Virus record (IMG/VR): IMGVR_UViG_3300027299_000110
Coordinates: 1 to 32,384 of that record
DNA length: 32,384 nucleotides
Direction: 5' to 3' (one strand)
DNA from: a virus
Shown here: one piece after another, positions 1-28,630 of the stretch
Layout: every line of letters begins with the position of its first letter
Position numbering within the stretch: position 1 is the stretch's first letter
The notes under the pieces: generated by a model
The model's database searches: none
Told to the model about the DNA's origin: nothing
What the model saw: the letters and a program-made list of their open reading frames with translations, nothing else
Made by a program: the position numbers and the translations under genes

Positions 1-2058
1 CCATTTTGCGTCAGTGAAGGTGACTCGGTCACACTCACAGGGCAGTGGAAAAGCGACCCAAAGTATGGTGACCAGTTCGACGCCAAAAGCGTGACTTACG
101 ATTTGCCCGAAACCCCTGAAGGGTTAGTGCAATACCTAGCAAAACATCCTGCGTTCGTTGGGATCGGGGAATCCACAGCCCGCAAGATTGTCCAGTACGT
201 CAGCAGCGCCGAGCACCTTGATCGCGTGATTCGTCAGGATGTTCAAGAACTCAATCGTGCACTGCGGATCCCTAAGCAGACATTGCATTCATTGCGGGAA
301 GCATGGATCGCCAACAGCGCACAAAATGAGGTCCGTTCCTACTTAGCAAGCTTTGGGCTCTCCCATCTTCAAATGGAAGCCTTGATCGAGGAGTTTGGCT
401 CCTCGGTCGTTGGTGTGCTTCGAGCCAATCCGTATTTGATCATTCAGTACGTCAAAGGCTACGGATTTAAGCGAGTCGACAAGATAGCAAGATCCATGGG
501 GGTTCCAAAAGAACATCCAGGAAGGCTCGAAGCCGCTTTGTGCTACTTGGTATTCGATGAGGTCAACTCCGGTCACACATGGATATCTCGCGACGAGCTG
601 GTACACAAGGCAACTGAGTTGCTGCTCCTGGATTCGCTTGACTGCCAGTCAACCATCGAGGTTGCTCTCGATCGAACCATCGAGCAAGGGAAGCTAATCC
701 TCAACGAGGATGCTGTCGCTCTGGCCTATTACGCGGAATCCGAGTGGTTCATCCACCAGTGTTTTCAGAATTACGGCAACGTGACTCGTCCGCTGGGGAT
801 CAGACCATCGCACGGCGAAGGTCTCAAACGCGCACAGCTAGCTGCCTACGAGGCTGCATTGCATCATTCGATCATTGTGATTTCCGGGGGGGCTGGTACC
901 GGTAAGACCCACACACTGGCTCGCATCGCTAAAACCTTCGAGTCAGCCGAACTAAAGGTCGCACTTTGCTCACCCACCGGGAAGGCCTCCAAGCGTATCG
1001 AGGAGTCGCTGCGATCCCAAGGGCTATCGCTTGAAGCAAAGACAATCCACCGGTTGCTTGAGTACAACGGCCATGAGTTTCAAAGAAAGAGCCTCTCGAT
1101 ACCAAGCAACCCAGGGGCTGGCGATACAGCAAACGACGCTTTCGATGTAGTCATCGTAGATGAAGTCTCGATGGTTGATGTCCCCTTGATGGCTGAATTG
1201 CTTCGACGCATCGACTTAGACTCCACCAGACTTATTCTAGTCGGTGATCATAATCAATTGCCCCCTGTGGGCGCTGGTAATGTCCTTCGAGACTGCATCA
1301 AACATGAGCTTGTTCCGACGTTCATTTTGGATGAGGTCATGCGCCAAGCTGGTGTTCTCAAAACCAACAGCATGGCGATTCTATCACAGCGTGTGATGCC
1401 AACGGCCCTGGGCGATCCGGGCTGGAGCGTAATCGATTCCCTCAGTGACCCGGTGCAGATCCAGGTTTACCTGCGCGATTTGGTGCTCAATCGAATTCCG
1501 GATCGGCTTGGTCTAGACCCTGTCATTGATGTTCAAATCATCACGCCGACGCATATTGGACCTCTCGGTACCAAGGCCATCAATGGAATGATGCAGTACC
1601 TGCTCCACGGTGAAGTCAATCGCAAGTTTGCAGTCGGAGACAAAGTCATCCAGACGGCCAATGATTACTGCATGGGGGTTATGAATGGCACACTCGGAAT
1701 TATCTCTGAAATCGACACTGAAGCAGGGACGAGGTACGTCGTCGATTTCGATGGGCACGGTCGCAAGCTAGTCCAGGATGACCAGATTCTTAACGTCCAG
1801 CTTGCCTACGCACTGACTGCGCATAAGGCCCAGGGGAGCGAGTTTCCATGCGTGGTCGTACTTTGCCACAAATCGCATTTCTTCGCCGATCGGAATTGGC
1901 TCTACACCGCGGTGACTCGCGCGTCGAAGTACTGCATCTTGGTCGGTGATCGTTGGGGACTGTCAAACGCTGTGAAAAAGAACAGTGTTAGTCAGCGCCG
2001 AACTTTCCTTGATCGCTGGGCCAAAGAGACTGCTCAAGCCACGGAGGTGTCACTTTGA
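1..2058 (+). CDS. recD2: RecD2-type SF1B DNA helicase, 5' end cut by window
   Basis: ATP-dependent 5'-3' DNA helicase of the RecD2/TraA type, presumably serving phage replication or recombination. The frame is open from base 1, and the residues before the first possible GTG at 91 (a G-Q-W...P-K-Y-G-x-Q-F pattern) match the N-terminal domain of RecD2, so the GTG is internal and the real start lies upstream. Visible parts are helix-hairpin-helix-like segments, Walker A (GGAGTGKT, about nt 886-909), the Walker B-type DEVSMVD (about 1156-1175), and the C-terminal helicase motifs LTAHKAQGSEF and YTAVTRAS. About 685 residues are visible against about 740 in the family, so roughly 40-60 residues are missing. 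Its TGA stop overlaps the start of the primase gene. Confidence 0.9.
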   Translation, partial: PFCVSEGDSVTLTGQWKSDPKYGDQFDAKSVTYDLPETPEGLVQYLAKHPAFVGIGESTARKIVQYVSSAEHLDRVIRQDVQELNRALRIPKQTLHSLREAWIANSAQNEVRSYLASFGLSHLQMEALIEEFGSSVVGVLRANPYLIIQYVKGYGFKRVDKIARSMGVPKEHPGRLEAALCYLVFDEVNSGHTWISRDELVHKATELLLLDSLDCQSTIEVALDRTIEQGKLILNEDAVALAYYAESEWFIHQCFQNYGNVTRPLGIRPSHGEGLKRAQLAAYEAALHHSIIVISGGAGTGKTHTLARIAKTFESAELKVALCSPTGKASKRIEESLRSQGLSLEAKTIHRLLEYNGHEFQRKSLSIPSNPGAGDTANDAFDVVIVDEVSMVDVPLMAELLRRIDLDSTRLILVGDHNQLPPVGAGNVLRDCIKHELVPTFILDEVMRQAGVLKTNSMAILSQRVMPTALGDPGWSVIDSLSDPVQIQVYLRDLVLNRIPDRLGLDPVIDVQIITPTHIGPLGTKAINGMMQYLLHGEVNRKFAVGDKVIQTANDYCMGVMNGTLGIISEIDTEAGTRYVVDFDGHGRKLVQDDQILNVQLAYALTAHKAQGSEFPCVVVLCHKSHFFADRNWLYTAVTRASKYCILVGDRWGLSNAVKKNSVSQRRTFLDRWAKETAQATEVSL

Positions 2059-4397
2059 GTGAGGCTATTGAACGAAATTGTCCAGCGAGCATCCGTGATT
2101 GCCATCAGTGGGTCGCTTGGAAGTATGTCGAGCGAGACGGCAAGCCGACCAAAGCACCGATTAATCCACACACTGGGTTGCTTGCCTCTTCGACTGACTC
2201 ATCGACCTGGGGGACATTCTCACAGGCGATGCAAGCCTGCGAGCGTAACAAGTCTCTTGCCGGTGTTGGCTTTGTCTTTTCAGCCGATGATCCGTACTGC
2301 GGTGTGGACCTGGATGATTCCATCGACGAAGCCACCAGAGAGCTTAAGCCGTGGGCACAGCAGATCGTCGATCGACTCGACAGTTACACCGAGATCAGTC
2401 CTTCAGGCTTGGGCTTAAAAGTATTCATCAGAGCCAGTAAGCCCGGATCCCGCTGCCGCAAGGCGTATCACGACGGTGAAGTCGAGATCTATGATCGCGA
2501 TCGGTTTTTCACTGTCACAGGGAATCGAATCGTCAGTGTTCCCGACGAGGTGAATATTCGGCAAGAATCCCTCGATGCTGTTTATGCACAGGTGTTTGGC
2601 AACGATGAACCAGGCGGTAACGGGACTCCATCGACTAGTCGAGGCCCCCAGCCAAGCGATAGTGGTTCGGTTTCTCTCAGTGACGATCAGATCATCAATC
2701 TGGCGTCCCGGCGTCGCTCCTCGGGCGCAAAGTTTCAATCGCTGTGGAATGGCGATTGGAACTCGCATTTCAATTCGGCCAGTGAGGCGGACTCATCGGT
2801 GGTCTTTACCCTCGCTTACTACACCAAAGATGCTGCTCAGATCGATCGGATCTTCCGACGTTCACAGTTGATGCGTGAGAAATGGGATCAAAAACACGGC
2901 AACGAAACCTATGGACAGCGGACGATCGCCAATGCGTTAAAGAAGGTCACCAAGCAGTACGATCCGACGAAAAAACGCTCTGTTGCCCCCAAGCCACCAA
3001 GCCAGATCCCCCCAAAAATCGGTTTCCCAAACACGGACATCGATTGGGATTTCAGAAGCGATCAGACTGAAAACGCTATGGCCGTGGAGTTCATCGACGG
3101 CAATCAAACCATATTGCGATATGTGCCATCTTGGAAGAAATGGCTCGCCTGGGACTCAAAGCGTTGGAAGATCGATATCGATCAAAGTCGAACGACTCGA
3201 TTGGCACGCAGATTGGTTCGCAATTACTGGGACAGGATGCGAGTCATCCAAAACGAGGACCAGCAAGAGAAATGGGCGGATTTCTGCCGACGAGCCAATC
3301 GCAAGACCACGATCGAGAACGTCGTATCGCTAGCACGGTGCGATGGTAGGACGACGATCGATCACGAGCTATTGAATCAAAACTCCTATTTCCTGAATCT
3401 GCAAAACGGCACACTTGATTTATCCACATCGGAGTTTCGCGATCATCGTCAGACGGATTCCATTACGCAAATCGCCAACGTCGCATACGATCCCAATGCG
3501 TCATGTCCAAAGTGGCGAGCATTCATCGATCTGATTTTCGGAAGCGACGATGAAGCCAAGCGATACATCCAAGCCCTGCTGGGTTATTCGTGCTCGGGGG
3601 ATGTCGGCGAGCATATTCTTCCAATCTGCTATGGCTCGGGTGCCAACGGCAAGTCAACGCTCTGGAATGCAATCGTCGAATTGCTTGGTGACTATGCCAT
3701 GCTGGCACCTAGCAAGTTGCTGCTTGGCACGACCAACGAGCATGACACGATCATCGCATCGCTCTACCAGCGGCGTTTGGTTGCCATCAGCGAGCCCGAT
3801 GAAGGCTCAAAGCTCCGGGAAGCTCGGGTCAAGGAATTAACAGGCGACGAGCAGATCACAGCAAGACGGATGCGAGAGGATTATTGGAGCTTTCGACGCA
3901 CGCACAAGTTTTGGCTAAGCACGAACCATCTGCCACAAATCAATGGCACTGATGAGGGCATCTGGCGTCGCATCAAGCTTATCCCCTTTAGAGTAGACCT
4001 CCGGACGGTAACAAAACCTATCCCTGACTATCACAAATTGCTCATTAGCGAAGAAGGTCCTGGAATCCTTAATTGGCTACTAGAAGGGTTTAAAGACTGG
4101 CGCAAGAACGGCTTTATTGAGCCTCAATCGGTCATTAGCGAGACAAGATCGTATCGGGGAAGTTCGGATGAGCTAGGTCGCTTCATTGCCGACTGCTGTG
4201 AGGTTTCACCGGAACTTGTGGTCGCCTCTTCGGAGCTTTTTGATGCTTATCGAACCTGGGGAGGCGAGCTGAGCCAGGTCCGATTTTCGAAGCAAATGCA
4301 GACCCGTTTTGCGCACTCAAAACGCAACTTTGGACGGTTCCGAAACAAGCAGGTTTTCGAGGGCATTTCTTTCTCAAAAAGTGATCAAAATGACTGA
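2055..4397 (+). CDS. phage primase-helicase (PrimPol-like domain plus SF3/D5 helicase)
   Basis: Multidomain replication protein of 780 residues. The N-terminal part (about 14-165) has archaeo-eukaryotic primase features like those of NrS-1-type phage polymerases: GVDLDD with candidate metal ligands D85 and D87, SPSGLGLKVF (115-124) and FTVTGNRI. The C-terminal part is a D5/SF3 helicase with Walker A GSGANGKST (527-535, Lys533). It would make primers and unwind DNA at the phage origin. The start is TTG at 2055, overlapping the recD2 stop and preceded by a strong GGAGG at 2043-2047. A candidate origin lies 47 bp downstream of its stop. In the SPSG motif a Lys replaces the His often found there. 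I am confident of the class but not of the exact primase subfamily. Confidence 0.88.
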   Translation: MSEAIERNCPASIRDCHQWVAWKYVERDGKPTKAPINPHTGLLASSTDSSTWGTFSQAMQACERNKSLAGVGFVFSADDPYCGVDLDDSIDEATRELKPWAQQIVDRLDSYTEISPSGLGLKVFIRASKPGSRCRKAYHDGEVEIYDRDRFFTVTGNRIVSVPDEVNIRQESLDAVYAQVFGNDEPGGNGTPSTSRGPQPSDSGSVSLSDDQIINLASRRRSSGAKFQSLWNGDWNSHFNSASEADSSVVFTLAYYTKDAAQIDRIFRRSQLMREKWDQKHGNETYGQRTIANALKKVTKQYDPTKKRSVAPKPPSQIPPKIGFPNTDIDWDFRSDQTENAMAVEFIDGNQTILRYVPSWKKWLAWDSKRWKIDIDQSRTTRLARRLVRNYWDRMRVIQNEDQQEKWADFCRRANRKTTIENVVSLARCDGRTTIDHELLNQNSYFLNLQNGTLDLSTSEFRDHRQTDSITQIANVAYDPNASCPKWRAFIDLIFGSDDEAKRYIQALLGYSCSGDVGEHILPICYGSGANGKSTLWNAIVELLGDYAMLAPSKLLLGTTNEHDTIIASLYQRRLVAISEPDEGSKLREARVKELTGDEQITARRMREDYWSFRRTHKFWLSTNHLPQINGTDEGIWRRIKLIPFRVDLRTVTKPIPDYHKLLISEEGPGILNWLLEGFKDWRKNGFIEPQSVISETRSYRGSSDELGRFIADCCEVSPELVVASSELFDAYRTWGGELSQVRFSKQMQTRFAHSKRNFGRFRNKQVFEGISFSKSDQND

Positions 4398-4443
4398 TTC
4401 GAAGCAACACAAAAGACTGTCGAAAACCCTGGAAATTTGCACG

Positions 4444-4533
4444 TTGCGCCAGGTTGCGCTAGGTCACTTCATTATCTTCCATGCGCGTACGCGCATGGGA
4501 ATCAATAAAAGTACCCAGCGCAACCTGGCGCAC
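4444..4533. repeat. iteron-like inverted repeats around a palindrome, candidate replication origin
   Basis: Two tandem 10-bp units, TTGCGCCAGG (4444-4453) and TTGCGCTAGG (4454-4463), are mirrored by CCCAGCGCAA (4514-4523) and CCTGGCGCAC (4524-4533). The arms 4445-4460 and 4517-4532 are perfect 16-bp reverse complements. Exactly midway sits the perfect 20-bp palindrome 4479-4498 (CCATGCGCGTACGCGCATGG). Both the arms and the palindrome are centred at 4488.5, with 18-bp AT-richer spacers on each side. One-turn-spaced repeats next to a primase-helicase gene are typical of an origin or initiator binding site. The function is inferred; a regulatory operator is the alternative. Confidence 0.6.
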
Positions 4534-4920
4534 GAGGCGATTTTATCGCTCGTCGTCGGACTGAATTTCATGGGTGGTGATGGCCTCAAAAATATGATCC
4601 CAAATCGACGCTCAACGAGGGCGTATCGACCACTGAAAAACGACGCCAAGCGTTACATAGGCTTTTTCGAGTCGGCAGCTGATTTGAATGTCTCAGATCA
4701 CGGATCTGTTTCAGTGATTCTCTTTCGAACCCATTCATCACACGCTACCGCACGCTTGCTTACAGGCTTCGCGCACAACCGCCTAAGTTTGCGCCTGACG
4801 CGTTCAGAGCACCACATTCGTGCAATGTGCGCATTTAGCGAAAGGTCGCGTAACAGGGCCATCGGTGGCGATTTAAAAGACTGCCAAACTGGCAGACCCA
4901 ATAGGTACTTCCGGCAAAAA

Positions 4921-4936
4921 CCCCTCTCCGGAGGGG
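4921..4936. other. short GC-rich hairpin
   Basis: CCCCTC and GAGGGG pair around a TCCG loop (6-bp stem). There is no T-run directly after it, so a terminator role is doubtful. It may be part of a dispersed intergenic repeat. Confidence 0.3.
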
Positions 4937-4965
4937 CGTGGGAAGGGTCGGCAACTTAGACAGAG

Positions 4966-5169
4966 TTTTATTTCCTAGTCCGAATTTGAAATCAGGAGGA
5001 CCTTTAGCAACGAAAAGCAAAGCGAAAACGATTTTTCGGAATCGACGTGATCCAGATTGCCAGGGGGTTGGAACGGTCCCTTTGGAGCCTGGGTTGGACC
5101 ACTACGGAAGCCAGATGCCAATTGTGGTGTCTTGGAATTTCACATCAAACGCATGCCTAGGAAATAAAA
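4966..5169. repeat. 13-bp inverted repeat pair upstream of the methyltransferase gene
   Basis: TTTTATTTCCTAG (4966-4978) and CTAGGAAATAAAA (5157-5169) are perfect reverse complements, 178 bp apart. The right copy ends immediately before the ATG at 5170. It may mark the ends of a small inserted segment or pair binding sites. A match of this length could occur by chance in the window with modest probability. Confidence 0.4.
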
Positions 5170-7368
5170 ATGAAAATTGACATTAGACCGATAGCGGAAA
5201 TCAAACCATACCCGAACAACCCCCGCATCAACGATGATGCGGTCGATGCTGTCGCAAGTAGCATCAAGGAGTTCGGGTTCCGACAACCGATCGTTGTGGA
5301 TACCGATGGGGTGATCATTTGCGGACATACCCGATTCAAAGCCGCGCAGAAGCTTGGCCTTGAGAAGGTACCGATCCATGTGGCCACGGATCTTACCCCC
5401 GAGCAGATCAAGGCCTACCGGATCGCCGACAACAAGAGTTCGGAATTGGCCGATTGGAATTTCGATCTCTTGCCGATCGAACTTGGTGAACTTCAAACAG
5501 CAGGATTTGATCTATCGCTCCTGGGTTTTGATTCCGATGAGCTTCTAAAGCTCATGAGCGGGGACGTAAACGAAGGACTCACGGATCCCGATGATGTGCC
5601 GGCACCACCGGATGCTGCGGTAACCCAACCTGGAGATCTTTGGATCTTGGGTGATCATAGGTTGCTCTGCGGGGACTCATCGAAACCCGAGGACCTGGAT
5701 CGACTCTTGGGTGGTAAAACCATCCAATTGGTCAACACGGATCCGCCCTACAACGTGAAGGTGGAACCGCGATCGAACAACGCGATCGCAGCGGGGTTGT
5801 CATCGTTCTCGAACGATAACGCTTCACAAAAGCTCAAAGGGGGCCAAGGGAACGCAGCCTCCTTTGGTGTCGACCACGAGACCGGTAAGCCAAAGCATCC
5901 TGCGACGCACAAAAAACTCCGAGCCAAGGATCGTCCCTTGGCAAACGACTTTGTGAGCGATCAAGAGTTCGATCGATTGCTCGATGCATGGTTTGGAAAC
6001 ATCGCTCGGGTGCTCGACCCAGGTCGTGGTTTCTACATCTGGGGTGGGTATGCCAACTGCGGCAACTACCCACCGTTCCTCAAGAAGCATGGTTTGTATT
6101 TCAGCCAAGCAATCATCTGGGACAAGATGCACCCGGTGCTTACCCGCAAGGACTTCATGGGAGCCCATGAATGGTGCCAACCACCAGATACGATGGTGCA
6201 AACCGCAGGGGGAACAAGTACGCTTGGCCAAATGCGTGACGACGATCGCGTGGTTAGTTATTATTCGCACAGCTCAGCAATCGTGGGCTTGCGAGATGGC
6301 TACCGAGTCAAAGTCGGCAGGCGGCCTTACGGAGGAAAGCTCTATGGGGTAGCAACCCCGTCGAAGCAATCCTGGGGGACCGATGGTCACATCTGGACGG
6401 TACGCATGACCCAAGATTACGCATCGCGATGGTGCGTGTATCTTATGCGTCGTGGCACTTGGTGGCGCGTTGGTATGACCAAGATGCGAACCACCTGGGG
6501 CTTTGGTGTAAAGGGACGATTGCTTCATGAGCTTGGAGATGAGGCTTGGATTCTCTCGCTGCATGATTCGGCAGCGGAGGCTCGGATGCAAGAACAGCTG
6601 GTGTCGATTCAGTTTGGGATTCCGCAGACATGCTGGGTCACGAACCGAAGCTCGTCGCACAGGCAAAGTGATCACATCAGGGACTTTTACGGTCAACTCG
6701 ATGCAGATGCCCAAGAAGCGGCTGCTTGCAACGCACTTGCACACTTCAATCGAAACCGAAAGTATCCGTTTGTCGAATCAAACGATACCAGGGCAAAGTT
6801 TGGAGCGCGGCAGTCGATCCAAGTACGTTCGTGCAATCTGCTCCCTGGCAGCATGGAGGTTCCAACTCCAAAGCGAGGTCAAAATGTGGAGTGGACTCCA
6901 ATTCGTGCCGTTGATGTCCAGGACTACTCTGGTGAGGTTGTCTCGTTGGGGGTCGATACGCACGAGCACTACATTGCCGACGGGCTTGTCACCCATAATT
7001 GCTTTTATGGATGGCTTGAAGGGGCTGCGCACGTGTACCTAGGGCCCAACAACGCCACGGATCTATGGCAGATCAAGAAAGTCAACCCGCAGTCGATGGT
7101 CCATCTGACCGAGAAGCCTGTCGAACTGGCGGTCCGCGCGATGCAGTACTCGTCGCGACCAGGAGAGAACGTGCTGGATCTGTTTGGTGGTAGCGGATCG
7201 ACCTTGATCGCTGCCCAGCAGACCGGTCGGCATGCATACCTCATGGAGCTTGACCCGCTTTACAGCGACGTCATCGTCGATCGGTACCAACGGTTCACTG
7301 GCAAGCCGGCTGTCCTCGAGAGAACCGGAACCTCGCCGATTCCGATGCGTGCGGCAGACGCTAAGTAG
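5170..7368 (+). CDS. ParB-like domain / beta-class DNA methyltransferase with intein
   Basis: Predicted 732-residue precursor that would splice to a 457-residue protein. Residues 1-110 form a ParB/Srx-like domain with the GHTR box at 52-55. The methyltransferase part has DPPY (191-194, catalytic motif IV) before DLFGGSGS (670-677, S-adenosylmethionine motif I), the beta-class order for adenine-N6 or cytosine-N4 methylation. Between Trp335 and Cys611 lies an intein (residues 336-610). Removing it restores a continuous H-E-W-C-F-Y-G-W motif. The enzyme could protect phage DNA or regulate through methylation; no partner endonuclease is visible. The gene ends 2 bp before a convergent minus-strand gene. 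Confidence 0.9.
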   Translation: MKIDIRPIAEIKPYPNNPRINDDAVDAVASSIKEFGFRQPIVVDTDGVIICGHTRFKAAQKLGLEKVPIHVATDLTPEQIKAYRIADNKSSELADWNFDLLPIELGELQTAGFDLSLLGFDSDELLKLMSGDVNEGLTDPDDVPAPPDAAVTQPGDLWILGDHRLLCGDSSKPEDLDRLLGGKTIQLVNTDPPYNVKVEPRSNNAIAAGLSSFSNDNASQKLKGGQGNAASFGVDHETGKPKHPATHKKLRAKDRPLANDFVSDQEFDRLLDAWFGNIARVLDPGRGFYIWGGYANCGNYPPFLKKHGLYFSQAIIWDKMHPVLTRKDFMGAHEWCQPPDTMVQTAGGTSTLGQMRDDDRVVSYYSHSSAIVGLRDGYRVKVGRRPYGGKLYGVATPSKQSWGTDGHIWTVRMTQDYASRWCVYLMRRGTWWRVGMTKMRTTWGFGVKGRLLHELGDEAWILSLHDSAAEARMQEQLVSIQFGIPQTCWVTNRSSSHRQSDHIRDFYGQLDADAQEAAACNALAHFNRNRKYPFVESNDTRAKFGARQSIQVRSCNLLPGSMEVPTPKRGQNVEWTPIRAVDVQDYSGEVVSLGVDTHEHYIADGLVTHNCFYGWLEGAAHVYLGPNNATDLWQIKKVNPQSMVHLTEKPVELAVRAMQYSSRPGENVLDLFGGSGSTLIAAQQTGRHAYLMELDPLYSDVIVDRYQRFTGKPAVLERTGTSPIPMRAADAK
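6175..6999 (+). mobile_element. intein within the DNA methyltransferase
   Basis: A 275-residue intervening protein starts at Cys336 and ends at Asn610, followed by the +1 extein residue Cys611. Splicing signatures visible are block A (C-x-P-P-D-T-M-V), block B T-x-x-H in GTDGHIWT, block F (V-S-L-G-V-D-T-H-E-H-Y-I-A-D-G) and block G LVTHN with the penultimate His, before Cys. These are the features of a self-splicing Hint domain. The middle segment (about residues 415-570) contains VYLM and WRVG followed by conserved-looking Arg and Glu positions, a possible divergent GIY-YIG-like endonuclease; no LAGLIDADG or HNH motif is evident. The insertion disrupts a conserved host motif, as is usual for inteins. 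Confidence 0.9.
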
Positions 7369-7370
7369 CG

Positions 7371-7691
7371 TTACAGCTTCTGGCACTGCCACGTTTGGTT
7401 TTGGAAAACATACAGGTAGTTCGCATCGCAGTTGCATGCGAACTCCAGCAGAGATCGGGTGTCGCAGACATGCTTTGGGGGCCGAGCGCGAGCCAAGTAC
7501 TCCGGACCACCGGCTTCGGAGGTCAAGCTGCGAAGGTCACCACCTGCCAAGAGTGCCGAAACTTTTTCGATGGAGTTGAAACGTTGATTAAGAATCACGC
7601 CTGCGAATTCTGGATAACCATCGTAGTGCAGGTACGTTGCCTGGAATGTCCCATCCTCGTTAGCACAAGCAATCGTTGCTCGTGTGGACAT
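7371..7691 (-). CDS. conserved phage protein, function unknown
   Basis: A 106-residue protein beginning MSTRATIACANEDG, with a Y-L-H-Y-D-G-Y-P-E stretch that recurs in many phage-encoded proteins of unknown role. Start codon at 7691 is preceded by GAGAGG. It is the last gene of the minus-strand block, 18 bp after the DUF4314 gene, and converges on the methyltransferase gene with only 2 bp between the stops, leaving no room for a separate terminator. No catalytic motif is evident. Confidence 0.8.
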   Translation of the reverse strand: MSTRATIACANEDGTFQATYLHYDGYPEFAGVILNQRFNSIEKVSALLAGGDLRSLTSEAGGPEYLARARPPKHVCDTRSLLEFACNCDANYLYVFQNQTWQCQKL

Positions 7692-7709
7692 GGTTGTACC
7701 TCTCTCGGA

Positions 7710-7922
7710 TTAGGTTACGTCGGAACTAAGGATCTCGATGAGGTCGTCGGGCAACGTGAGCATCAATCGCCGACCGTTGTCCCAATCGACCTCAACCTGC
7801 GTCCAGCGATGGTGCGGGTGGATCGCGCGAACGGTGCCGAGCGATCCGGAAGGAACCGGATCAGGATCCTCGGGCATGTGGATCAGTCGGATTCGATCTC
7901 CGACTTTGGGTGCATCGATCAT
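7710..7922 (-). CDS. DUF4314-like small protein
   Basis: A 70-residue protein whose body (G-D-R-I-R-L-I-H-M, G-S-L-G-T-V, W-D-N-G-R) fits the DUF4314 family, small SH3-like beta-barrel proteins frequent in phages and plasmids. The role is unknown. AAAGGA precedes the ATG. The gene lies between two short intergenic gaps of 18 bp, consistent with a polycistronic minus-strand message. Confidence 0.82.
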   Translation of the reverse strand: MIDAPKVGDRIRLIHMPEDPDPVPSGSLGTVRAIHPHHRWTQVEVDWDNGRRLMLTLPDDLIEILSSDVT

Positions 7923-7940
7923 GATTGCGATTCCTTTCGT

Positions 7941-8192
7941 TTAGAGAACCTTACCGAGCAGGCTTTTCTTCATCGCGTAGATCGCTTCGCAGGCCAGGAG
8001 GTGTTCGGTAAGAAGCGGGCCGGCGGTCTGTGGTTGCTGTGCGTCGGCGATCTCAAGGAGCTCGGCCAAGGCGTGGATCCCTTCGATCGCTTTGTAGTAG
8101 GACTCGCGGATCTCTTGGGCTTGGTGTGGGTCCATCGTGCGGAAGGCGTCGCGAAGGATTTTTTCGTTGGCTTGTTTTTCTGCGGTGGTCAT
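7941..8192 (-). CDS. small helical protein, function unknown
   Basis: An 83-residue protein predicted to be mostly helical (rich in Ala, Glu, Leu; no Cys motif except one near the C-terminus). AAGGA precedes the start. The distances to its neighbours (18 and 30 bp) place it in the same transcript. I do not recognise a family. Confidence 0.7.
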   Translation of the reverse strand: MTTAEKQANEKILRDAFRTMDPHQAQEIRESYYKAIEGIHALAELLEIADAQQPQTAGPLLTEHLLACEAIYAMKKSLLGKVL

Positions 8193-8222
8193 CGGAAGGT
8201 TCCTTGTGGTGGGGTGTTGCGT

Positions 8223-8516
8223 TTATTGTTTCTTGATCAGGTACTGGAGCATCTTTTGTTGTTCGTAGAGCTTGTTGAGTTCCGCCTTGGCTTCTTTGGC
8301 TTCGCGGAGGTCGCCATCGGCGAAGTCCGTCCAACTCAAGCAGCAGGGTTGGTCGTTGAGCATTGCGGTTGCATCCTCTACTGCTCGTTGGGCTCGCCAG
8401 AGCATTTGTTCGGCGGCCTTTGCGATTCGTTTCTTGGCGTCCGGAATCATCCACTCGAGGCGATTGAGTTGTTCCTGGATCGCTGCGACCGTTGGGTGTG
8501 TGACGGTGTCGTTCAT
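8223..8516 (-). CDS. small helical/coiled-coil protein, function unknown
   Basis: A 97-residue protein starting MNDTVTHPTVAAIQEQ. The ATG at 8516 was chosen over an upstream in-frame ATG because GGAGAAA stands at the right distance and the longer frame would run into the leader repeat. The sequence is rich in Ala, Glu, Lys and Leu, with a probable C-terminal coiled coil and a C-C pair in the middle. It is the first gene after the leader at 8517-8710. I do not recognise a family. Confidence 0.72.
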   Translation of the reverse strand: MNDTVTHPTVAAIQEQLNRLEWMIPDAKKRIAKAAEQMLWRAQRAVEDATAMLNDQPCCLSWTDFADGDLREAKEAKAELNKLYEQQKMLQYLIKKQ

Positions 8517-8710
8517 CGTCGTTTCTCCGTGTTTGCGTTGGGGTTTTCGTTTGGCGTTACAACACATTTCCCATGCGTTGGGCAGAACATCAAGCCGATG
8601 TGGAAAGTAATGTTTTGGATTCTCGGAGAATGTTTTCGAGCCCCACAAACGCCACAGTTTGGCACCGGTTGCGTCGCTTTGGATCTTGGGGTAACTAGGC
8701 CATCCAACGA
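8517..8710 (-). promoter_or_regulatory. minus-strand leader, copy A of a repeated element
   Basis: Non-coding stretch ahead of the 8516 gene. The segment 8631-8661 (ending in ACAAACGCCACAGTTTG) is nearly repeated at 11788-11821 ahead of the amidoligase. Read on the minus strand, both copies then show TTGAT (here 8589-8593), a short hairpin (CCCA/TGGG here), ATGTGT, and ACGC(C)AAACG (here 8548-8557). This suggests a shared promoter or structured 5' untranslated region. The exact promoter boxes are uncertain. Confidence 0.5.
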
Positions 8711-8717
8711 GAAAACG

Positions 8718-8738
8718 CCCACACGTCGCAAACGTGGG
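8718..8738 (-). terminator. possible terminator after the 8763-9740 minus-strand genes
   Basis: On the minus strand CCCAC pairs with GTGGG, extended by two G-U pairs around a 7-nt loop, followed closely by CGTTTTC. It lies about 25 bp past the stop at 8763 and just before leader copy A. The stem is modest. Confidence 0.4.
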
Positions 8739-8762
8739 GCGCAGTCGCCAAATCGACCCGGG

Positions 8763-9002
8763 TTAGCGCCGGAGCCAATTCCGAATCGTCTTGAGCTCGT
8801 ACCTGCCCAAACCGGAGACCGCATAGTCCTGGCCGTTAAGCCCTCGGGCGATCAATCGATCCCCTCGGCGTTCGACATACTCAACCGTGGTATCAAGCGA
8901 CGGGTCGTCTTCGGATTGGATTTGGTACGAATGGTCGTCATCGGGGAAAACCCGCTGGCCGTCGGTAAGATCGGTCACCAGATGGATCTGTCCGATGTGC
9001 AT
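8763..9002 (-). CDS. small protein, function unknown
   Basis: A 79-residue, mostly beta-type sequence starting MHIGQIHLVTDLTDG and ending in a basic R-N-W-L-R-R. The start at 9002 is one base after the upstream gene's TAG and is preceded by GGAG, so the two are translationally coupled. A hairpin follows at 8718-8738. No family recognised. Confidence 0.72.
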   Translation of the reverse strand: MHIGQIHLVTDLTDGQRVFPDDDHSYQIQSEDDPSLDTTVEYVERRGDRLIARGLNGQDYAVSGLGRYELKTIRNWLRR

Positions 9003-9003
9003 G

Positions 9004-9198
9004 CTAGTGCTCCGTGGTCTTGGTGGATTGGTCGCGGTTGGGGAACGGTGGATCTAGCTCTTCGGCGATCGAGAGCAGGATCTCGGCAAGTTGGTTGGCG
9101 TAGATGCAAGCCACCTTGCCCGACTCAAAAGCCTCATCGAGTCGCAGCGCAACCTTTCGCATCGCATCTGCGACTCGGTAATTCGGATCGTCGCTCAT
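9004..9198 (-). CDS. small helical protein, function unknown
   Basis: A 64-residue helical protein starting MSDDPNYRVADAMRKVAL. Its ATG overlaps the TGA of the upstream winged-helix gene (ATGA, 4 bp) and its stop is one base from the next start, a tight translational coupling that supports reality despite small size. It is the only gene of the block not in the codon phase shared by the other nine. Confidence 0.68.
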   Translation of the reverse strand: MSDDPNYRVADAMRKVALRLDEAFESGKVACIYANQLAEILLSIAEELDPPFPNRDQSTKTTEH

Positions 9199-9740
9199 TG
9201 GGCCACCTCGGCAGTCGCGCTAGCGGCTACAAACCGGCCCCGATCGGTCTTTACGAATCGCGAAGCCTCCCCCTTGGCCAACTCTCGGAGGATCGCGCTG
9301 TAGAGAGTTGCGTGCGGGGTTTTCCCACCGGGGCTTGTCCAATACCCCTTGCTGGTCATCGCTTCGATCATCTGCTGAACGTTGAGGGGTTCGGTCGCTT
9401 CGCACAGAACCTTGTGGGCGGCAGCCAAAGCACTCAGGCGTTTGGGTTCTTGGCCCTCGGTCTTCTTGGCGACCCGCTTGGGTTTGATTGGAACGACATC
9501 CGGGTTCGCATCGGCGGGTTGTTCTACCGGCGATTCGCTTTGCGTTTGCGCGGTCGATTTGCTCTTGCCGACCTCGCCCTGCAATCGCTGGGCACTTTTG
9601 ACGAGGATCTTCTTGCCGGTCGCCAGGTTGGTGGCGTTCCAACCACCGCTGGGTTTCTCGCTATCTATCTGAATCTCGACCTTCTTGCCGGTGACGTTCG
9701 CATAGTACTTGCCACCGATCCTGACCTCTGCCTTCTTCAT
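9195..9740 (-). CDS. HARE-HTH winged-helix protein
   Basis: A 181-residue protein. The N-terminal ~50 residues (MKKAEVRIGGKYYANVTGKK) look like a small beta domain, then a Lys/Pro/Gln-rich linker, then a C-terminal winged-helix domain of the HARE-HTH type: LSALAAAHKVL, a helix ending MTSKGYW, and a wing ending in R-G-R-F-V. Such domains in phages and bacteria bind DNA or link to modified-base systems; here the role is unknown. The start at 9740 has GGGAG upstream; a longer frame begins at 9779 but lacks a ribosome site. The 3' end overlaps the next gene by 4 bp. Confidence 0.8.
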   Translation of the reverse strand: MKKAEVRIGGKYYANVTGKKVEIQIDSEKPSGGWNATNLATGKKILVKSAQRLQGEVGKSKSTAQTQSESPVEQPADANPDVVPIKPKRVAKKTEGQEPKRLSALAAAHKVLCEATEPLNVQQMIEAMTSKGYWTSPGGKTPHATLYSAILRELAKGEASRFVKTDRGRFVAASATAEVAQ

Positions 9741-9833
9741 TCGTCTCTCTCCCGTATTGGAACCGTGGTTAGCTGCCATCGTCAGGCCACTCGCACTACC
9801 GAGCGACGATCCCGATCGTGTCGGGATTTCGGC

Positions 9834-10160
9834 TTAGGATCCCCAGACCAGGTCGGCCAACCCGCATCCGAGGAAGTCGACCACCACCTGAATCTCGGTG
9901 GTCGTGGCAGGTACATCCAACCCGCGGTCGAAGTTGAAAAGGGTCTTCTTGGTTTGGATGTCTTGAATCCAGAGCTTCGAAATCTTGGTGCGTCCGAGTT
10001 CGTAGTCTTCGCTCTCTGCGTGTTCGGCGAAGACCAGAGCTTCGAACCGAACCGCGTTGTTGATCTTGCCTCGTACCCAAGCTCCCCCGCTGGAAGTTCG
10101 CTTTTCGATCTTGGTGATCACCAGGTCGAGGTCCGTTACGTCAATCTTTTCGTTGGCCAT
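9834..10160 (-). CDS. conserved phage protein, function unknown
   Basis: A 108-residue protein starting MANEKIDVTDLDLV, with a predicted mainly beta structure and an acidic middle section (F-A-E-H-A-E-S-E-D-Y). GGAGAAA precedes the ATG. The upstream gap (10161-10304) contains operator-like repeats, so the gene may begin its own transcript. The gap of 93 bp to the downstream HTH gene holds nothing recognisable. No family assigned. Confidence 0.72.
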   Translation of the reverse strand: MANEKIDVTDLDLVITKIEKRTSSGGAWVRGKINNAVRFEALVFAEHAESEDYELGRTKISKLWIQDIQTKKTLFNFDRGLDVPATTTEIQVVVDFLGCGLADLVWGS

Positions 10161-10193
10161 TTTTGTTTCTCCGTCTTGGAAAGGGTGGTGCTT

Positions 10194-10283
10194 CGTTTGG
10201 CGTATTCATATAAGAGCCATGTTCTCAAAAGACATGCAACTCGATTATGCGATAATCTGCCAGTAATCTGGAGACTTCCAGAA
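10194..10283 (-). promoter_or_regulatory. operator-like repeats and probable promoter ahead of the 10160 gene
   Basis: An AT-richer gap contains the perfect inverted repeat GATTATGCGATAATC (10243-10257), the direct repeat TAATCTG (10253-10259 and 10264-10270, 11 bp apart, one helical turn) and the hairpin TCTGGAGACTTCCAGA (10267-10282). On the minus strand a TATATG box (in 10204-10214) and the ACGCCAAACG motif (10194-10203) shared with two other leaders follow. This arrangement suggests a repressor-controlled promoter. Confidence 0.42.
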
Positions 10284-10304
10284 ACATGTGGAAATCCTTG
10301 CAAG

Positions 10305-10577
10305 TTAATTGTTTCGGGCCACATCCCAGGCGCGCTTGGTTCCGTATCCAAGCTGCTGGCCTTCGACGATGAAAAGGACCGCATCTTCGGCCGCATCGTC
10401 GTTGTCCTCACCGTCCTCATCGTCTTCGTCGTAGTCATTGATCTCGGCTCCGGATACCAAGCCATAGACAGAGTTCTCGAAGGGCCAGTTCTGCTGCGTC
10501 ATCAACCGGACCTCAGCTTCGCCACCGATCTCGTCGCGGTAGTCTTCGAGGCGTGCAATCAATTCATCGATCGTCAT
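10305..10577 (-). CDS. acidic conserved phage protein
   Basis: A 90-residue protein starting MTIDELIARLEDYRDEIG, with a central run of Asp/Glu (about residues 48-63) and a C-terminal V-E-G-Q-Q-L-G-Y-G motif. Proteins of this layout, with a helix, then E-V-R-L, then an acidic insert and V-E-G-x-Q-L-G-Y, recur in phages with no known function. The ATG at 10577 follows GGAGAA; an upstream in-frame ATG at 10673 was rejected for lack of a ribosome site and implausible sequence. The leader includes two GGCTTGATGT words in tandem. Confidence 0.75.
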   Translation of the reverse strand: MTIDELIARLEDYRDEIGGEAEVRLMTQQNWPFENSVYGLVSGAEINDYDEDDEDGEDNDDAAEDAVLFIVEGQQLGYGTKRAWDVARNN

Positions 10578-10753
10578 GGTCTGTTCTCCATGGGGTTTGA
10601 AATATGTCGGAAACAAAAAGTCATCACACATCAGTACATCAAGCCGGGAAACATCAAGCCGCAAGCCAACCAAATCGGAGACAAGCCCCTCGCGTGGATT
10701 GGATCCCCTATAGGTATGACCTACACGGTCAGGATGCCCCGTGACGAACCCAG

Positions 10754-10787
10754 CAAGAAAACCTTGGGGTTTTTCCCAAGGTTCTTG
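10754..10787 (-). terminator. rho-independent terminator after the amidoligase gene
   Basis: On the minus strand CAAGAACCTTGGG pairs with CCCAAGGTT(TT)CTTG, a 13-bp stem with a two-T bulge and a small loop. The inner 9 bp (10760-10768 with 10775-10783) are perfect. It lies 13 bp after the amidoligase stop. Confidence 0.62.
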
Positions 10788-10799
10788 CCCGCTAGGCCC

Positions 10800-11657
10800 T
10801 TAGGCCGCTTGGTCGTATTTCTTGGCCATCTCCAGGAGCTTGTTCTTGATCGTCTTCCATTCGCGGTTGGTCTCGCCGGTGATCTCGCCGAAGATCTTGT
10901 TTCGAAGGTCACCCTTGTACCAACCCTTGGTCCATCCGAGCCGGTAGAAAAGGCGGTTGAGTTCTGTCTCGCCCAGGCCGGCCCCGGGTCGATCCCAGCA
11001 ACTCTTGGTTCCGTCTTTCTTGGCGTAGTCCCAATCGGCGCATCGTTTGGTGTTCATCGCCAGCTCTGCCAACCCCAGGACCATCATCAGGTATCCGACC
11101 ACCTTGGTCTTGTTGAGCGTTCCGGCGAAGGCCCGGAATTCGATTCGGTTCTTGCCCGCGGCCAGGTGGGTGAGGTTCAGCAGGTGGTAGCGATCCGCTT
11201 CGCATCGGTTCTTCGCGGCGTCTTTGTCCCCGTATTGTTTGATCCGTTTGGTGTAGACCGTTTGTTCTCGCCGGCGTGTTCCGGTGCTCGCGAAAATCGC
11301 TTTTTCGTGGTTGCCAACCAGGGAAATCAATCTGGCCAAGGCGGCTGCATCCCCATTCCATTCGATCGTTATGTGCAAACCGCAGGTGGCGTTTACGCGT
11401 GCTCCGTGCTCGTTGATCTTGTCGATCGCGTCTTCGATCTGCTTGAGGCCTTCGTATCCCTTGAGCTTGGGGCTTACGAATTCGCATCCCTTGCGGTTAG
11501 GTGTTTCTGGTTTGATGCTCGCGTCGCGTTCTGCTCGCCATCCGGTGGGCAACCAAGGTACTTGGTGTCCGTGGTGGTAGGGTCCGATCGGTGTGGTGTC
11601 GCTATTTGGAAGGGTGGTCTCGAATTCGATTCCGAAGGCGATCTCGTTAGCGTTCAT
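10800..11657 (-). CDS. amidoligase family protein
   Basis: A 285-residue member of the putative amidoligase family (glutamine-synthetase-like fold, predicted ATP-dependent COOH-NH2 ligase). Family signatures are present in order: FGIEFE near the N-terminus (8-13), CEFVSP (58-63), TCGLHI (91-96), RYHLLNL (156-162) and RIEFRAFAGTLN (171-182). The start at 11657 puts FGIEFE at the usual distance from the N-terminus; in-frame ATGs at 11699 and 11726 are possible but lie in the leader repeat. The substrate is unknown; known relatives are proposed to modify peptides, cell-wall components or other proteins. It is the first gene of the minus-strand block and is followed by a strong terminator, so it is probably transcribed alone. 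Confidence 0.87.
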   Translation of the reverse strand: MNANEIAFGIEFETTLPNSDTTPIGPYHHGHQVPWLPTGWRAERDASIKPETPNRKGCEFVSPKLKGYEGLKQIEDAIDKINEHGARVNATCGLHITIEWNGDAAALARLISLVGNHEKAIFASTGTRRREQTVYTKRIKQYGDKDAAKNRCEADRYHLLNLTHLAAGKNRIEFRAFAGTLNKTKVVGYLMMVLGLAELAMNTKRCADWDYAKKDGTKSCWDRPGAGLGETELNRLFYRLGWTKGWYKGDLRNKIFGEITGETNREWKTIKNKLLEMAKKYDQAA

Positions 11658-11932
11658 CTGCGTCTGTCCGTTTGGGTTGGGTTGGTCTCTCGTTTGCATT
11701 CGCCATCGCGTTTGCGTGTGACACATTCAGCCCTGCGGCTGGGGATCAATCCAGCCGATAAAGCATGTTTTCCTCAGTCTTTTTGCATGTTTTTCGGTGC
11801 CCCAACAAACGCCACGGTTTGCAACAACACGCATGCGAAATCGCCTTGGCCAAGGGCTCGCATGCGCCAAGAAAACACGCCGGTGGGCCCCGTGTGGGCC
11901 ACGGTGCCAATCCTCAAAGAAGGGAGCCTGGC
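11658..11932. promoter_or_regulatory. divergent intergenic region with leader copy B
   Basis: Separates the minus-strand amidoligase from the plus-strand late operon, so it should hold promoters for both. Copy B of the leader repeat (11788-11821) matches 8631-8661; then on the minus strand come TTGAT (11745-11749), the hairpin CAGCC/GGCTG, ATGTGT and ACGCAAACG (11709-11717). A second palindromic structure at 11830-11866 has CGCATGCGA and TCGCATGCG arms around CCTTGGCCAAGG (11844-11855). Confidence 0.5.
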
Positions 11933-12139
11933 ATGAGTGACGGAAAAAACCCGATCGATCCGAATCGACTAACCCCCGAGCAGGCTGCCAAACTCCTCTC
12001 GGCAGCGGCCAAGATCCGGATCCCCGAGGAGAACATTGTGCTGGACATCGAAAGCGGTGCTCCAACAAACCAAGATGGATCAATCAACTTGGTCCACTAC
12101 ATCGCATGGATGGTAAAGGAGATGGGCCGTGGTGAGTGA
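11933..12139 (+). CDS. small TerS-like protein (putative)
   Basis: A 68-residue protein directly upstream of the terminase large subunit, where a small terminase subunit is expected. Start at 11933 follows GGGAG; an upstream in-frame ATG at 11765 would read through the leader repeat and is rejected. Residues 9-61 (D-P-x-x-L-T-P-E ... L-V-H-Y-I-A-W-M-V) align with residues 4-58 of the following terminase in the same pattern: D-P, L-x-P, paired leucines, I-x-E and Y-x-A-W-x-V. This suggests a shared DNA-binding module. The length is short for a full TerS. The gene overlaps the terminase start by 8-11 bp. Confidence 0.7.
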   Translation: MSDGKNPIDPNRLTPEQAAKLLSAAAKIRIPEENIVLDIESGAPTNQDGSINLVHYIAWMVKEMGRGE

Positions 12140-26882: not shown

Positions 26883-27554
26883 ATGGGAGACCAGTTCCGC
26901 AAAGTTCAACCAGGGGATCCGCTGAAGATTCCGGCAGAGGCCTGGAATGCTTTGGTGGATTTATCCCAGCAGCAAAAGAACCAACGACACGATCAACTCT
27001 CCGAATCCGAAGGAACACCCCGTCAAACAACACTCGCCAAAGTACGCAACCAAACTGGCGTCGACCTTGATCGATTCTCGATCGTTGCACTTGGTACACC
27101 GATCATCACCCCCGCAGAGAACCTCCGAGAATTCAAACGCCAAGTGAGTTTCCAAGGCTTGGTCCCAAGTGCCGGCACGGGAACTCGCTTCGGTGTACTG
27201 CTCGAACCGCTGAAGAATAATTTAATTGGCACCGCAGCAATTGCAGGGTGTGTCTTGACGCGAGTCTTGGTGGGATCCGTCGCTTACACCTGTGCGGAAA
27301 CAGTTGCTGGTCAAAATAGCTACCTGCGCAGCGTACCACATGGGCCGGCCTCGGTGCTCTGGATCGAATCCTCGGGTGCGGTGCGATGGGCAGTGATCCG
27401 ATTCGATGATGCCAACTACGAAGAGATCGTGTTCATCACGAGCAATATCCCTGACGGCAATGGGTACTACCCAGGCGTGGTTCAGAAGTTCGATGTCGCT
27501 ATGAAATCTTGGAGCACGGCTTTTAGCTGCAAGGTGGTGGATGCCAACAAATGA
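26883..27554 (+). CDS. tail protein, function unknown
   Basis: A 223-residue protein starting MGDQFRKVQPGDPLKIPAE. GGAG precedes the ATG, 3 bp after the previous stop. The N-terminal 60 residues look helical and linker-like; the rest is beta-rich, with a central V-A-L-G-x-P and a C-terminal Y-Y-P-G-V-V-Q-K-F-D strand pair. The layout (N-terminal attachment helix plus beta domain) suits a tail tip adaptor. Its stop overlaps the next gene's ATG. Confidence 0.7.
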   Translation: MGDQFRKVQPGDPLKIPAEAWNALVDLSQQQKNQRHDQLSESEGTPRQTTLAKVRNQTGVDLDRFSIVALGTPIITPAENLREFKRQVSFQGLVPSAGTGTRFGVLLEPLKNNLIGTAAIAGCVLTRVLVGSVAYTCAETVAGQNSYLRSVPHGPASVLWIESSGAVRWAVIRFDDANYEEIVFITSNIPDGNGYYPGVVQKFDVAMKSWSTAFSCKVVDANK

Positions 27555-28630
27555 CCCTGTATTCACGTCGCTACATTGCCACTTCTGTTAGTGGCTCGGT
27601 CGAAGGCCTGCCAGTGTACGCGGCAACTTGTACGCAACAACGATTCGGGCAGGGCCCTAAACGCCAGCTCGGACATTTCCTTGGAATGGTTAATGGAGAA
27701 CCTTTGTATGCAGTATCTAGCTGTGAGTTTCCTCAGATGGGTCGTTACCTCATGCGTTATGTGGGGTTTTCCGACCTGCCAATCTACGCCATTGTGTGCT
27801 GCGAAGTTTCCTCGAGTGGATCTTCGGGCAGTAGCGGTTCATCGGGCTCATCCAGCTCCTCTGGATCGTCGGGCTCAAATAGCTCGTCAGGTACTTCGGG
27901 TTCAAGTGGCACCTCGGGATCGAGCGGAAGCAGCGGATCCTCTGGAGACGTCGATCCTCCTGGATCCCACGGAAACTCAGGTTCCTCCGGCCAAAGCGGC
28001 AGCTCAGGGTCCAGCGGATACTCCGGATCCAGTGGGTCCTCTGGGAGTAGCGGCTCGTCGGGAAGCAGTGGATCCTCCGGCTCAAGCGGCTCGTCGGGAA
28101 GTTCCGGGTCGAGTGGCAGCTCTGGCTCGTCGGGTTCGAGTGGGTCCTCTGGTAGCTCGGGCTCTTCTGGCTCATCGGGCACTTCAGGGGCGTCTAGTTC
28201 CAGCGGTGGATCATCGGTTGGTTCCAGTGGTGTTGGCTCTTCGGGCTCGAGTGGTTCGTCCAGTTCCTCGGGAAGTTCGAGCGGTTCTAGCTCATCAGGT
28301 AGCTCTGGCTCCTCCGGTAGCTCGGGATCCAGTGGCCCAAGTGGATCCAGCGGTTCATCCGGTTCGGGACCATCTGGCGTCGGGTCCAGTGGTGTGGGTT
28401 CAAGCGGTGTTAGCGGTGGCTCGGCAAGCGACTCTGGTTCCGGTTCGTCGAGCGGTTGCTGTTGCCCATGTTACTACGAATGGAATGGAATCGGATGGGT
28501 ACCGGTCCCAGTTCCCGATCCATGCGTTAGTCCGATGGGACCGCTACAGGCCGTTTGCGTCTGTGCGGGGAAAGAGCCAACACGCCCTGGGTCTTACTAT
28601 GGTGAAGTTGTCTACACAGGATGCGAGTAA
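27551..28630 (+). CDS. Ser-Gly repeat protein of the tail tip
   Basis: A 359-residue protein with three parts. Residues 1-86 hold three imperfect repeats of about 28 residues, each containing a G/D-L/E-P-x-Y-A-x-x-C core (around 19-27, 49-58 and 75-84). Residues 86-302 are almost only Ser and Gly in an S-S-G triplet. The C-terminal 57 residues are Cys-rich (C-C-C-P-C-Y-Y-E-W-N-G) with a W-V-P-V-P-V-P-D-P strand. A long flexible or fibrous stalk between two folded heads is implied. AAGGTGG precedes the ATG, which overlaps the previous stop. It could be a tail fibre or a tether for glycosylation by the downstream enzyme. Confidence 0.82.
   Translation: MTLYSRRYIATSVSGSVEGLPVYAATCTQQRFGQGPKRQLGHFLGMVNGEPLYAVSSCEFPQMGRYLMRYVGFSDLPIYAIVCCEVSSSGSSGSSGSSGSSSSSGSSGSNSSSGTSGSSGTSGSSGSSGSSGDVDPPGSHGNSGSSGQSGSSGSSGYSGSSGSSGSSGSSGSSGSSGSSGSSGSSGSSGSSGSSGSSGSSGSSGSSGSSGTSGASSSSGGSSVGSSGVGSSGSSGSSSSSGSSSGSSSSGSSGSSGSSGSSGPSGSSGSSGSGPSGVGSSGVGSSGVSGGSASDSGSGSSSGCCCPCYYEWNGIGWVPVPVPDPCVSPMGPLQAVCVCAGKEPTRPGSYYGEVVYTGCE
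27806..28456 (+). repeat. Ser-Ser-Gly coding triplet array
   Basis: About 650 bp encode an almost uninterrupted S-S-G pattern. Serine uses several codons (TCC, TCG, TCA, AGC, AGT, TCT) and glycine all four, so the array is conserved at protein level rather than as an exact DNA repeat. It creates long spurious open frames in other frames and on the minus strand. Confidence 0.85.

Follow-up and report, generated by a model that had tools for sequence, protein, structure and literature searches.

Might a compact, symmetric piece of DNA lying just past a primase-helicase gene be the site from which a virus starts to replicate? The window considered here is the whole analysed stretch of DNA, positions 1 to 32,384 of IMG/VR virus record IMGVR_UViG_3300027299_000110, and the element in question is a 90-bp dyad at 4444-4533, situated between the stop codon of the primase-helicase gene and the next long ORF (5170). 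From the outside inward, each side contributes two 10-bp units (TTGCGCYAGG), oriented oppositely on the two sides, and a 15-bp spacer, which together enclose a 20-bp palindrome; iterons, spacers, arms and palindrome all share a single centre, 4488.5. The outer left iteron, TTGCGCCAGG (4444-4453), and the inner left iteron, TTGCGCTAGG (4454-4463), lie on the plus strand. Their inverted counterparts belong to the minus strand and read CCCAGCGCAA (inner, 4514-4523) and CCTGGCGCAC (outer, 4524-4533) on the plus strand. A+T-rich spacers occupy 4464-4478, where a TTATCT word is conserved, and 4499-4513, and between them sits the palindrome (4479-4498), perfect over its 20 bp and strictly alternating between pyrimidine and purine across its inner 18 bp (4480-4497). 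The original prediction had described such an arrangement—two tandem units mirrored by two inverted ones, 16-bp arms that are exact complements and, sharing their centre, a perfect 20-bp palindrome, just after a PrimPol-helicase gene—and re-measurement bears it out, placing the arms at 4445-4460 and 4517-4532 and counting 46 bases between the primase stop codon (which ends at 4397) and the first unit, with the single amendment that each inverted unit is one base off the exact reverse complement of a unit. Less fortunate was the accompanying claim that further TTGCGCC and GCGC words continue to about 4830: in the vicinity downstream TTGCGC has just one further occurrence (4789), and relatives do not conserve that stretch.

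The symmetry of the dyad is far beyond chance. About the centre at 4488.5, 35 of 45 positions are complementary, as against at most 23 at any other centre in the window and 27 in the best of 60 first-order Markov sequences of window length. The element also has a fixed address in close relatives, among which locus counts, here and below, contain related sequences unless a non-redundant set is named. It follows the primase gene in 23 of the 24 Planctomycetota-relative loci whose sequence extends past there. Among the 20 viral loci, whose primases are 74-100% identical, 16 carry the whole element, two end before it, one ends inside it and one is without it; this last (L097), the lone miss among 17 viral loci with downstream sequence, is on a contig that stops 145 nt on. 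The 10 genome loci comprise seven with the element whole, one in which it is cut inside and two whose sequence ends before it, and the near relatives from named genomes are, in 10 of 10 cases, labelled Planctomycetota or subgroups thereof (Planctomycetales, Planctomycetaceae, Pirellula). Scanning viral contigs with the core word returned 27 stretches, made up of 16 whole elements and 11 chance words lacking symmetry. Two true elements outside the known-relative contigs (L318, L329) likewise lie directly after a primase.

An alignment of the element, termed A4, comprises 115 positions and 18 rows (17 distinct), and leaves out duplicates and near-duplicates (L080, L082, L091, L093, L096, L119), truncated loci (L095, L117) and loci without the 3' end. 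Between pairs of rows, 99% of the 115 positions are alignable inside the element, compared with 47-57% downstream of it. The TGCGC of the outer left iteron (4445-4449) and the GCGCA of the outer right iteron (4528-4532) are invariant in 18/18 rows, and the inner left iteron varies more. Among the 17 distinct rows, both members have changed in seven of the 16 arm pairs, and arm partners pair in 93.4% of cells, a figure that falls to 19-51% when they are slid by 1-3 columns. A+T content over the 18 rows is 78% in the left spacer and 79% in the right, 27-29% in the iterons and 29% in the core, against 45.5% for the window; a conserved flank on the primase side (4421-4443) is also A+T-richer, at 63% in A4 columns 1-25, which include the element's first base. 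In part of the family (L084, L086, L096 and others) a tRNA T-arm-like word, GTTCGAGTCC, occurs about 30 nt after the element; ARAGORN found no tRNA in the window.

The gene upstream (2055-4397, plus strand) encodes the presumed initiator, in which a PrimPol domain is followed by an NrS-1-like helical bundle, a D5_N/SF3 helicase and a predicted winged helix. The protein matches NrS1-1_pol-like_HBD, D5_N and DUF5906 in Pfam and the P4-family primase model TIGR01613 in NCBIfam, its residues 16-312 match the NrS-1 polymerase chains 6k9a/6a9w (E ~1e-38), and its AF2 model has a pLDDT of 83.8 and a pTM of 0.53. The product is an AEP primase-polymerase fused to an SF3 helicase of the P4-D5 type. AF2 modeling of the last 155 residues predicts the C-terminal winged helix at residues ~704-778 (4164-4388, plus strand), a candidate reader of the iterons. 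The best aligned chains for this predicted fold are RFX5 8zjr (Z 8.9, 71 residues) and the RFX1 DBD 1dp7 (Z 7.2, 66 residues), and comparison with the matching part of AsfvPrimPol gives Z 7.4; a Foldseek search with the predicted winged helix returned nothing below E 0.001. Arm similarity is positively related to C-terminal domain identity in a permutation analysis, where 0 of 500 permutations reach the observed value. It correlates more strongly, however, with helicase-domain identity (partial correlation 0.26) than with C-terminal identity (0.14), and because the correlation with the helicase part is the stronger, the winged helix is not specifically supported as the iteron reader.

Origins of this kind are already known, since biochemical precedents exist in SaPI and Cch2 and a genetic precedent in pRN1, and the window element is a compact variant. 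PMC7581432 places the SaPI and Cch2 origins just downstream of the helicase gene and reports that the isolated C-terminal domain of Cch2 binds a site downstream of its gene. As described there, SaPI Rep and SCCmec Cch2 combine a self-loading helicase, a C-terminal DNA-binding domain and iterons directly downstream, an arrangement that the window would share if its predicted winged helix binds DNA, and SaPI5 Rep has primase and helicase fused, as in the window protein, whereas the Cch2 iterons (AAGTG) differ from those of the window. The text examined makes no mention of a palindrome, of Z-DNA or of AT-rich, and it reports that direct repeats mattered, a point that we count against our best explanation. 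For pRN1, PMC4234260 describes a stem-loop of 100 bp that begins 54 bp past the gene; it is necessary and, together with the replication operon, sufficient. pRN1 shares with the window a protein of PrimPol, SF3 and winged helix (the last predicted in the window) and a symmetric element of ~100 bp downstream of its gene, and its authors extend the stem-loop idea to phage BIP-1 (PMC4234260). Unlike the window element, that of pRN1 is without iterons according to its authors; no alternating core is described in the text examined, from which the words 'alternating' and 'Z-DNA' are absent, and in gel shifts the pRN1 protein did not bind specifically to the stem-loop (PMC4234260), which is likewise counted against our best explanation. 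P4 alpha, for its part, binds the P4 origin repeats with a winged helix according to PMC4234260, and the window protein scores in the P4 family (TIGR01613), but P4 alpha has a Toprim-type primase, unlike the window protein.

More distant relatives carry annotated origins at this very place. In the records of the Lactobacillus phages A2 and phiadh, a rep_origin is annotated from the 3' end of the primase gene (NC_004112.1, NC_000896.1). Both phages have a homologous primase-helicase (32% identity for A2 and 29% for phiadh, over 97%) and oppositely oriented iterons, but their iteron sequences are different and their origins extend over several hundred bp around an A+T-rich centre with TA runs, where the window has a compact, G+C-rich dyad of 90 bp. 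Other iterons in both orientations follow primases about one-third identical in IME1365, A9Y, phi105, Angelica, Murucutumbu and plasmid pSINAC02; in phi105 the arms measure 16 bp, and in IME1365 a palindromic ATATATACGTATATAT lies between the iterons. A further 66 viral loci (31-35% identity) were measured for the longest perfect inverted repeat past the primase: its mean length is 11.5 bp, compared with 8.5 bp in shuffles and 7.5 bp upstream, and 26 of the 66 exceed all 20 of their shuffles. Iterons after the primase are not a universal rule for the protein family, because seven actinophage relatives (Samy, Honk, Liebe, phiSASD1, RemusLoopin, Phives and Abigail) show no such structure there. 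By the same measure none was found in a Thermaerobacter plasmid or a Halomarina plasmid, and BIP-1 has only a 9-bp inverted repeat, although PMC4234260 reports a stem-loop there.

Certain words recur among these segments. AGGGTT occurs at least twice in 19 of 48 non-redundant downstream segments, with 2.0 expected; the window family reads GGGTTGCGC in many rows, and an AGGGTT-like core is common to the iterons of many families. A GGGTT-like iteron core shared across families is nonetheless a lead only, many segments being without AGGGTT. CAAGG/CCTTG is present at least twice in 17 of the 48 segments (3.2 expected), and a box like CCTTGGGAGAGTAAG accompanies the iterons downstream of the primase in phi105 (L225), phiadh (L104) and A2 (L103), possibly as a priming or single-strand site.

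On account of its anatomy, its place and its relatives, the dyad is best read as an iteron origin: very probably it is a phage replication origin, whose iterons lie directly 3' of the gene for a self-loading PrimPol-SF3 helicase that would bind them. The original prediction, which had allowed that related phages might lack the structure or place it elsewhere, thus finds its origin or initiator-site interpretation supported, both by the constant placement in close relatives (23 of 24 loci) and by the origins annotated there in distant ones. GC skew, also offered with that prediction as a check, was computed over the window and over bases 1-50,000 of AcaML1; it makes no sharp turn at 4488 and is uninformative, the AcaML1 minimum lying ~3.7 kb from that phage's own element.

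Several other roles deserve to be weighed against an origin. Dyad sites are typical of operators, and another ORF begins past the element (at 5170, or at 4938 if a short one is taken), such that the primase-helicase or a repressor could bind the inverted iterons and control the following gene with no origin role at all. Against such autoregulation, a search restricted to the sigma-70 type found no sigma-70-like promoter in 4300-5250, the iterons keep their position beside the primase even though the window, A2, phiadh and AcaML1 differ in the gene that comes next, and homologues have their annotated origins at that place; we consider it very improbable. An RNA element of the primase transcript, either a terminator or a 3'-UTR hairpin, is in keeping with the compensatory changes and a few G-U cells, and in pRN1, likewise, a terminator hairpin immediately precedes the ori stem-loop. 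Yet a stem would not need the tandem units in the arms, which also recur in the same orientation, and it is broken in 5 of the 17 distinct rows by an A-C clash at 4483/4494. Nor is there an Rfam match, a T run or a terminator-like match at the element, the sole terminator-like site in 4300-5250 being at 4895-4881 on the minus strand, and we hold an RNA function to be very unlikely. A Rho-independent terminator specifically, sought as a G+C-rich hairpin and then a T run, was rejected at the element. Packaging (cos), attachment or recombination sites also combine repeats with dyads, but this element tracks the primase, whereas the terminase comes 7.6 kb later in the window and 8 kb later in AcaML1, and plasmid pSINAC02, with a primase of the same family, also has iterons there; a role of this sort is scarcely credible.

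If the dyad is an iteron origin, a mechanism can be sketched. The C-terminal winged helix would bind the paired 10-bp iterons, which should lie on one DNA face because they are one helical turn apart. The inverted iteron pairs would load two helicase rings facing each other across ~50 bp, and the A+T-rich spacers and alternating core, easily distorted under negative supercoiling, would open first. The PrimPol domain would then prime on the exposed strands, and forks would depart in both directions. The SV40 core origin uses two plus two inverted recognition units for loading an SF3 helicase as two rings; the comparison with the window is one of analogy, as the SV40 virus and protein architecture are unrelated and the binding domain is N-terminal.

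The core of the dyad presents the more unusual aspect. In A4, the central 18 bp alternate strictly between pyrimidine and purine in 18/18 rows and form a full palindrome in 5/18. The predicted perfect palindrome is therefore present in the window but fails as a conserved property, alternation being what relatives keep; for example, the A-C clash at 4483/4494 leaves alternation intact while breaking the stem. Variants in the core amount to 6 transitions and 0 transversions, compared with 32 transitions and 42 transversions elsewhere in A4, a bias with a hypergeometric chance of ~0.01 (calculated by hand) for which CpG decay is an alternative cause. Within the window, the core is the sole alternating tract of at least 14 bp. 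Alternation of CG and CA is a classical Z-DNA-prone sequence. Flanked as it is on both sides by A+T-rich spacers, the core may be where the DNA opens in response to supercoiling, with a cruciform or a priming site as alternative roles; a core driven by supercoiling into Z-DNA or melting would be a bold reading.

The same layout recurs beyond the close family, among phages and genomes of widely differing bacteria. After its primase, bacteriophage AcaML1 has tandem iterons, TTTACTTATTTACC, a 20-bp alternating CGTACACGCGCGCGCGCGTA, GGAAGTTAACCGGC and inverted iterons. From 377 AcaML1-like viral loci 80 were taken, of which 71 have 250 nt past the stop codon and 18 are non-redundant. In these 18 the alternating tracts average 18.7 bp, against 9.2 bp in shuffles and 8.0 bp in 481 control windows from the same loci, and a tract of at least 14 bp is present in 15 of them compared with 1.2% of control windows. 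A combined rule, requiring an alternating tract together with inverted arms that are 9 bp or longer and whose centre lies no more than 8 bp from that of the tract, picks out the site after the primase in 13 of the 18, whereas none of 6 other tracts in 130 kb qualifies. Three of the remaining loci have no 14-bp tract (L258, L276, L294), and two have a tract with no flanking arms by the combined rule (L240, L257). A further locus, L101, with a helicase part 38% identical, has 19-bp arms around a 20-bp alternating core that is not a palindrome.

Planctomycetota genomes offer a second sample. Of 294 searched, 57 match the primase-helicase protein; outside the close family 30 loci were examined, 24 of them measurable. 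A flanked alternating tract lies at the primase 3' end in seven of the 24 (L350, L352, L353, L354, L359, L367 and L371), with iterons that differ from the window's. The arms of L354 are only 8 bp long, and in L350 and L353 the open frame continues past the tract, the primase homology stopping before it. Another locus, L369, has a tract and 16-bp arms that are ~16 bp off centre, and in 16 of the 24 there is no tract that is either flanked or near-central. In a mostly Firmicutes set, alternating tracts average 10.2 bp against 7.7 bp in shuffles, with p<0.05 in 14 of 48; these could reflect A+T richness alone, because they are mostly TA runs. In A+T-rich phages (L136, L149, L154, L193 and others) the primase is followed by alternating tracts, 15-19 bp long and TA-rich.

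Such recurrence invites a wider proposal, which we advance tentatively and hold to be possible rather than probable: a cross-phylum class of phage and mobile-element origins whose inverted iterons enclose a core that alternates strictly, is mostly CG/CA-rich and hence Z-DNA-prone, and lies between A+T-rich spacers. This core would serve a self-loading PrimPol-SF3 initiator as an opening switch that responds to supercoiling, the G+C-rich counterpart of the TA runs of Firmicutes phages, and the iterons would turn over completely while the layout stays. A search covering titles and abstract openings of openly searchable papers returned no alternating or Z-prone core in any phage origin. Close to an even call is the alternative that the origin reading is right but alternation itself has no role, the core being merely a hairpin or cruciform, or a leftover of CpG decay. 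The window core is, after all, itself a perfect palindrome, core substitutions are all transitions, as CpG decay would give, and at one locus in a Planctomycetota genome (L362) the arms enclose a plain hairpin. Set against this are the A4 rows, every one of which alternates when only 5 of 18 are full palindromes; the L101 core, which alternates over 20 bp and is not self-complementary; and the AcaML1-like cores, which reach 26 bp, strictly alternating and non-palindromic.

The iteron-origin reading would assign an origin to viruses of Planctomycetota, a phylum whose phages have received little study. It would also supply a simple rule by which origins could be located in metagenomic phages, namely that inverted iterons enclosing an alternating pyrimidine-purine tract should be sought immediately past the PrimPol-helicase gene. 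Should the core prove functional, the element would be a natural one-initiator system for studying B-to-Z or related transitions at an origin, and would bear on the way in which initiators manage to open origins rich in G+C.

Other features of the window are recorded here in their own right. Adjoining the candidate origin, a 732-aa ORF (5170-7368) fuses ParB-N to an N6/N4 DNA methylase domain. On the minus strand, 9767-9834 matches the type II hammerhead ribozyme (Rfam RF02276) at 43.3 bits, against a gathering score of 37, with E 8e-06. The match runs antisense within a 1513-aa ORF (7395-11936) for which neither Pfam nor NCBIfam gave a hit. Toward the far end of the record are genes for a putative mannosyltransferase (PF11051; 29165-31159) and a collagen-repeat protein (27551-28630).
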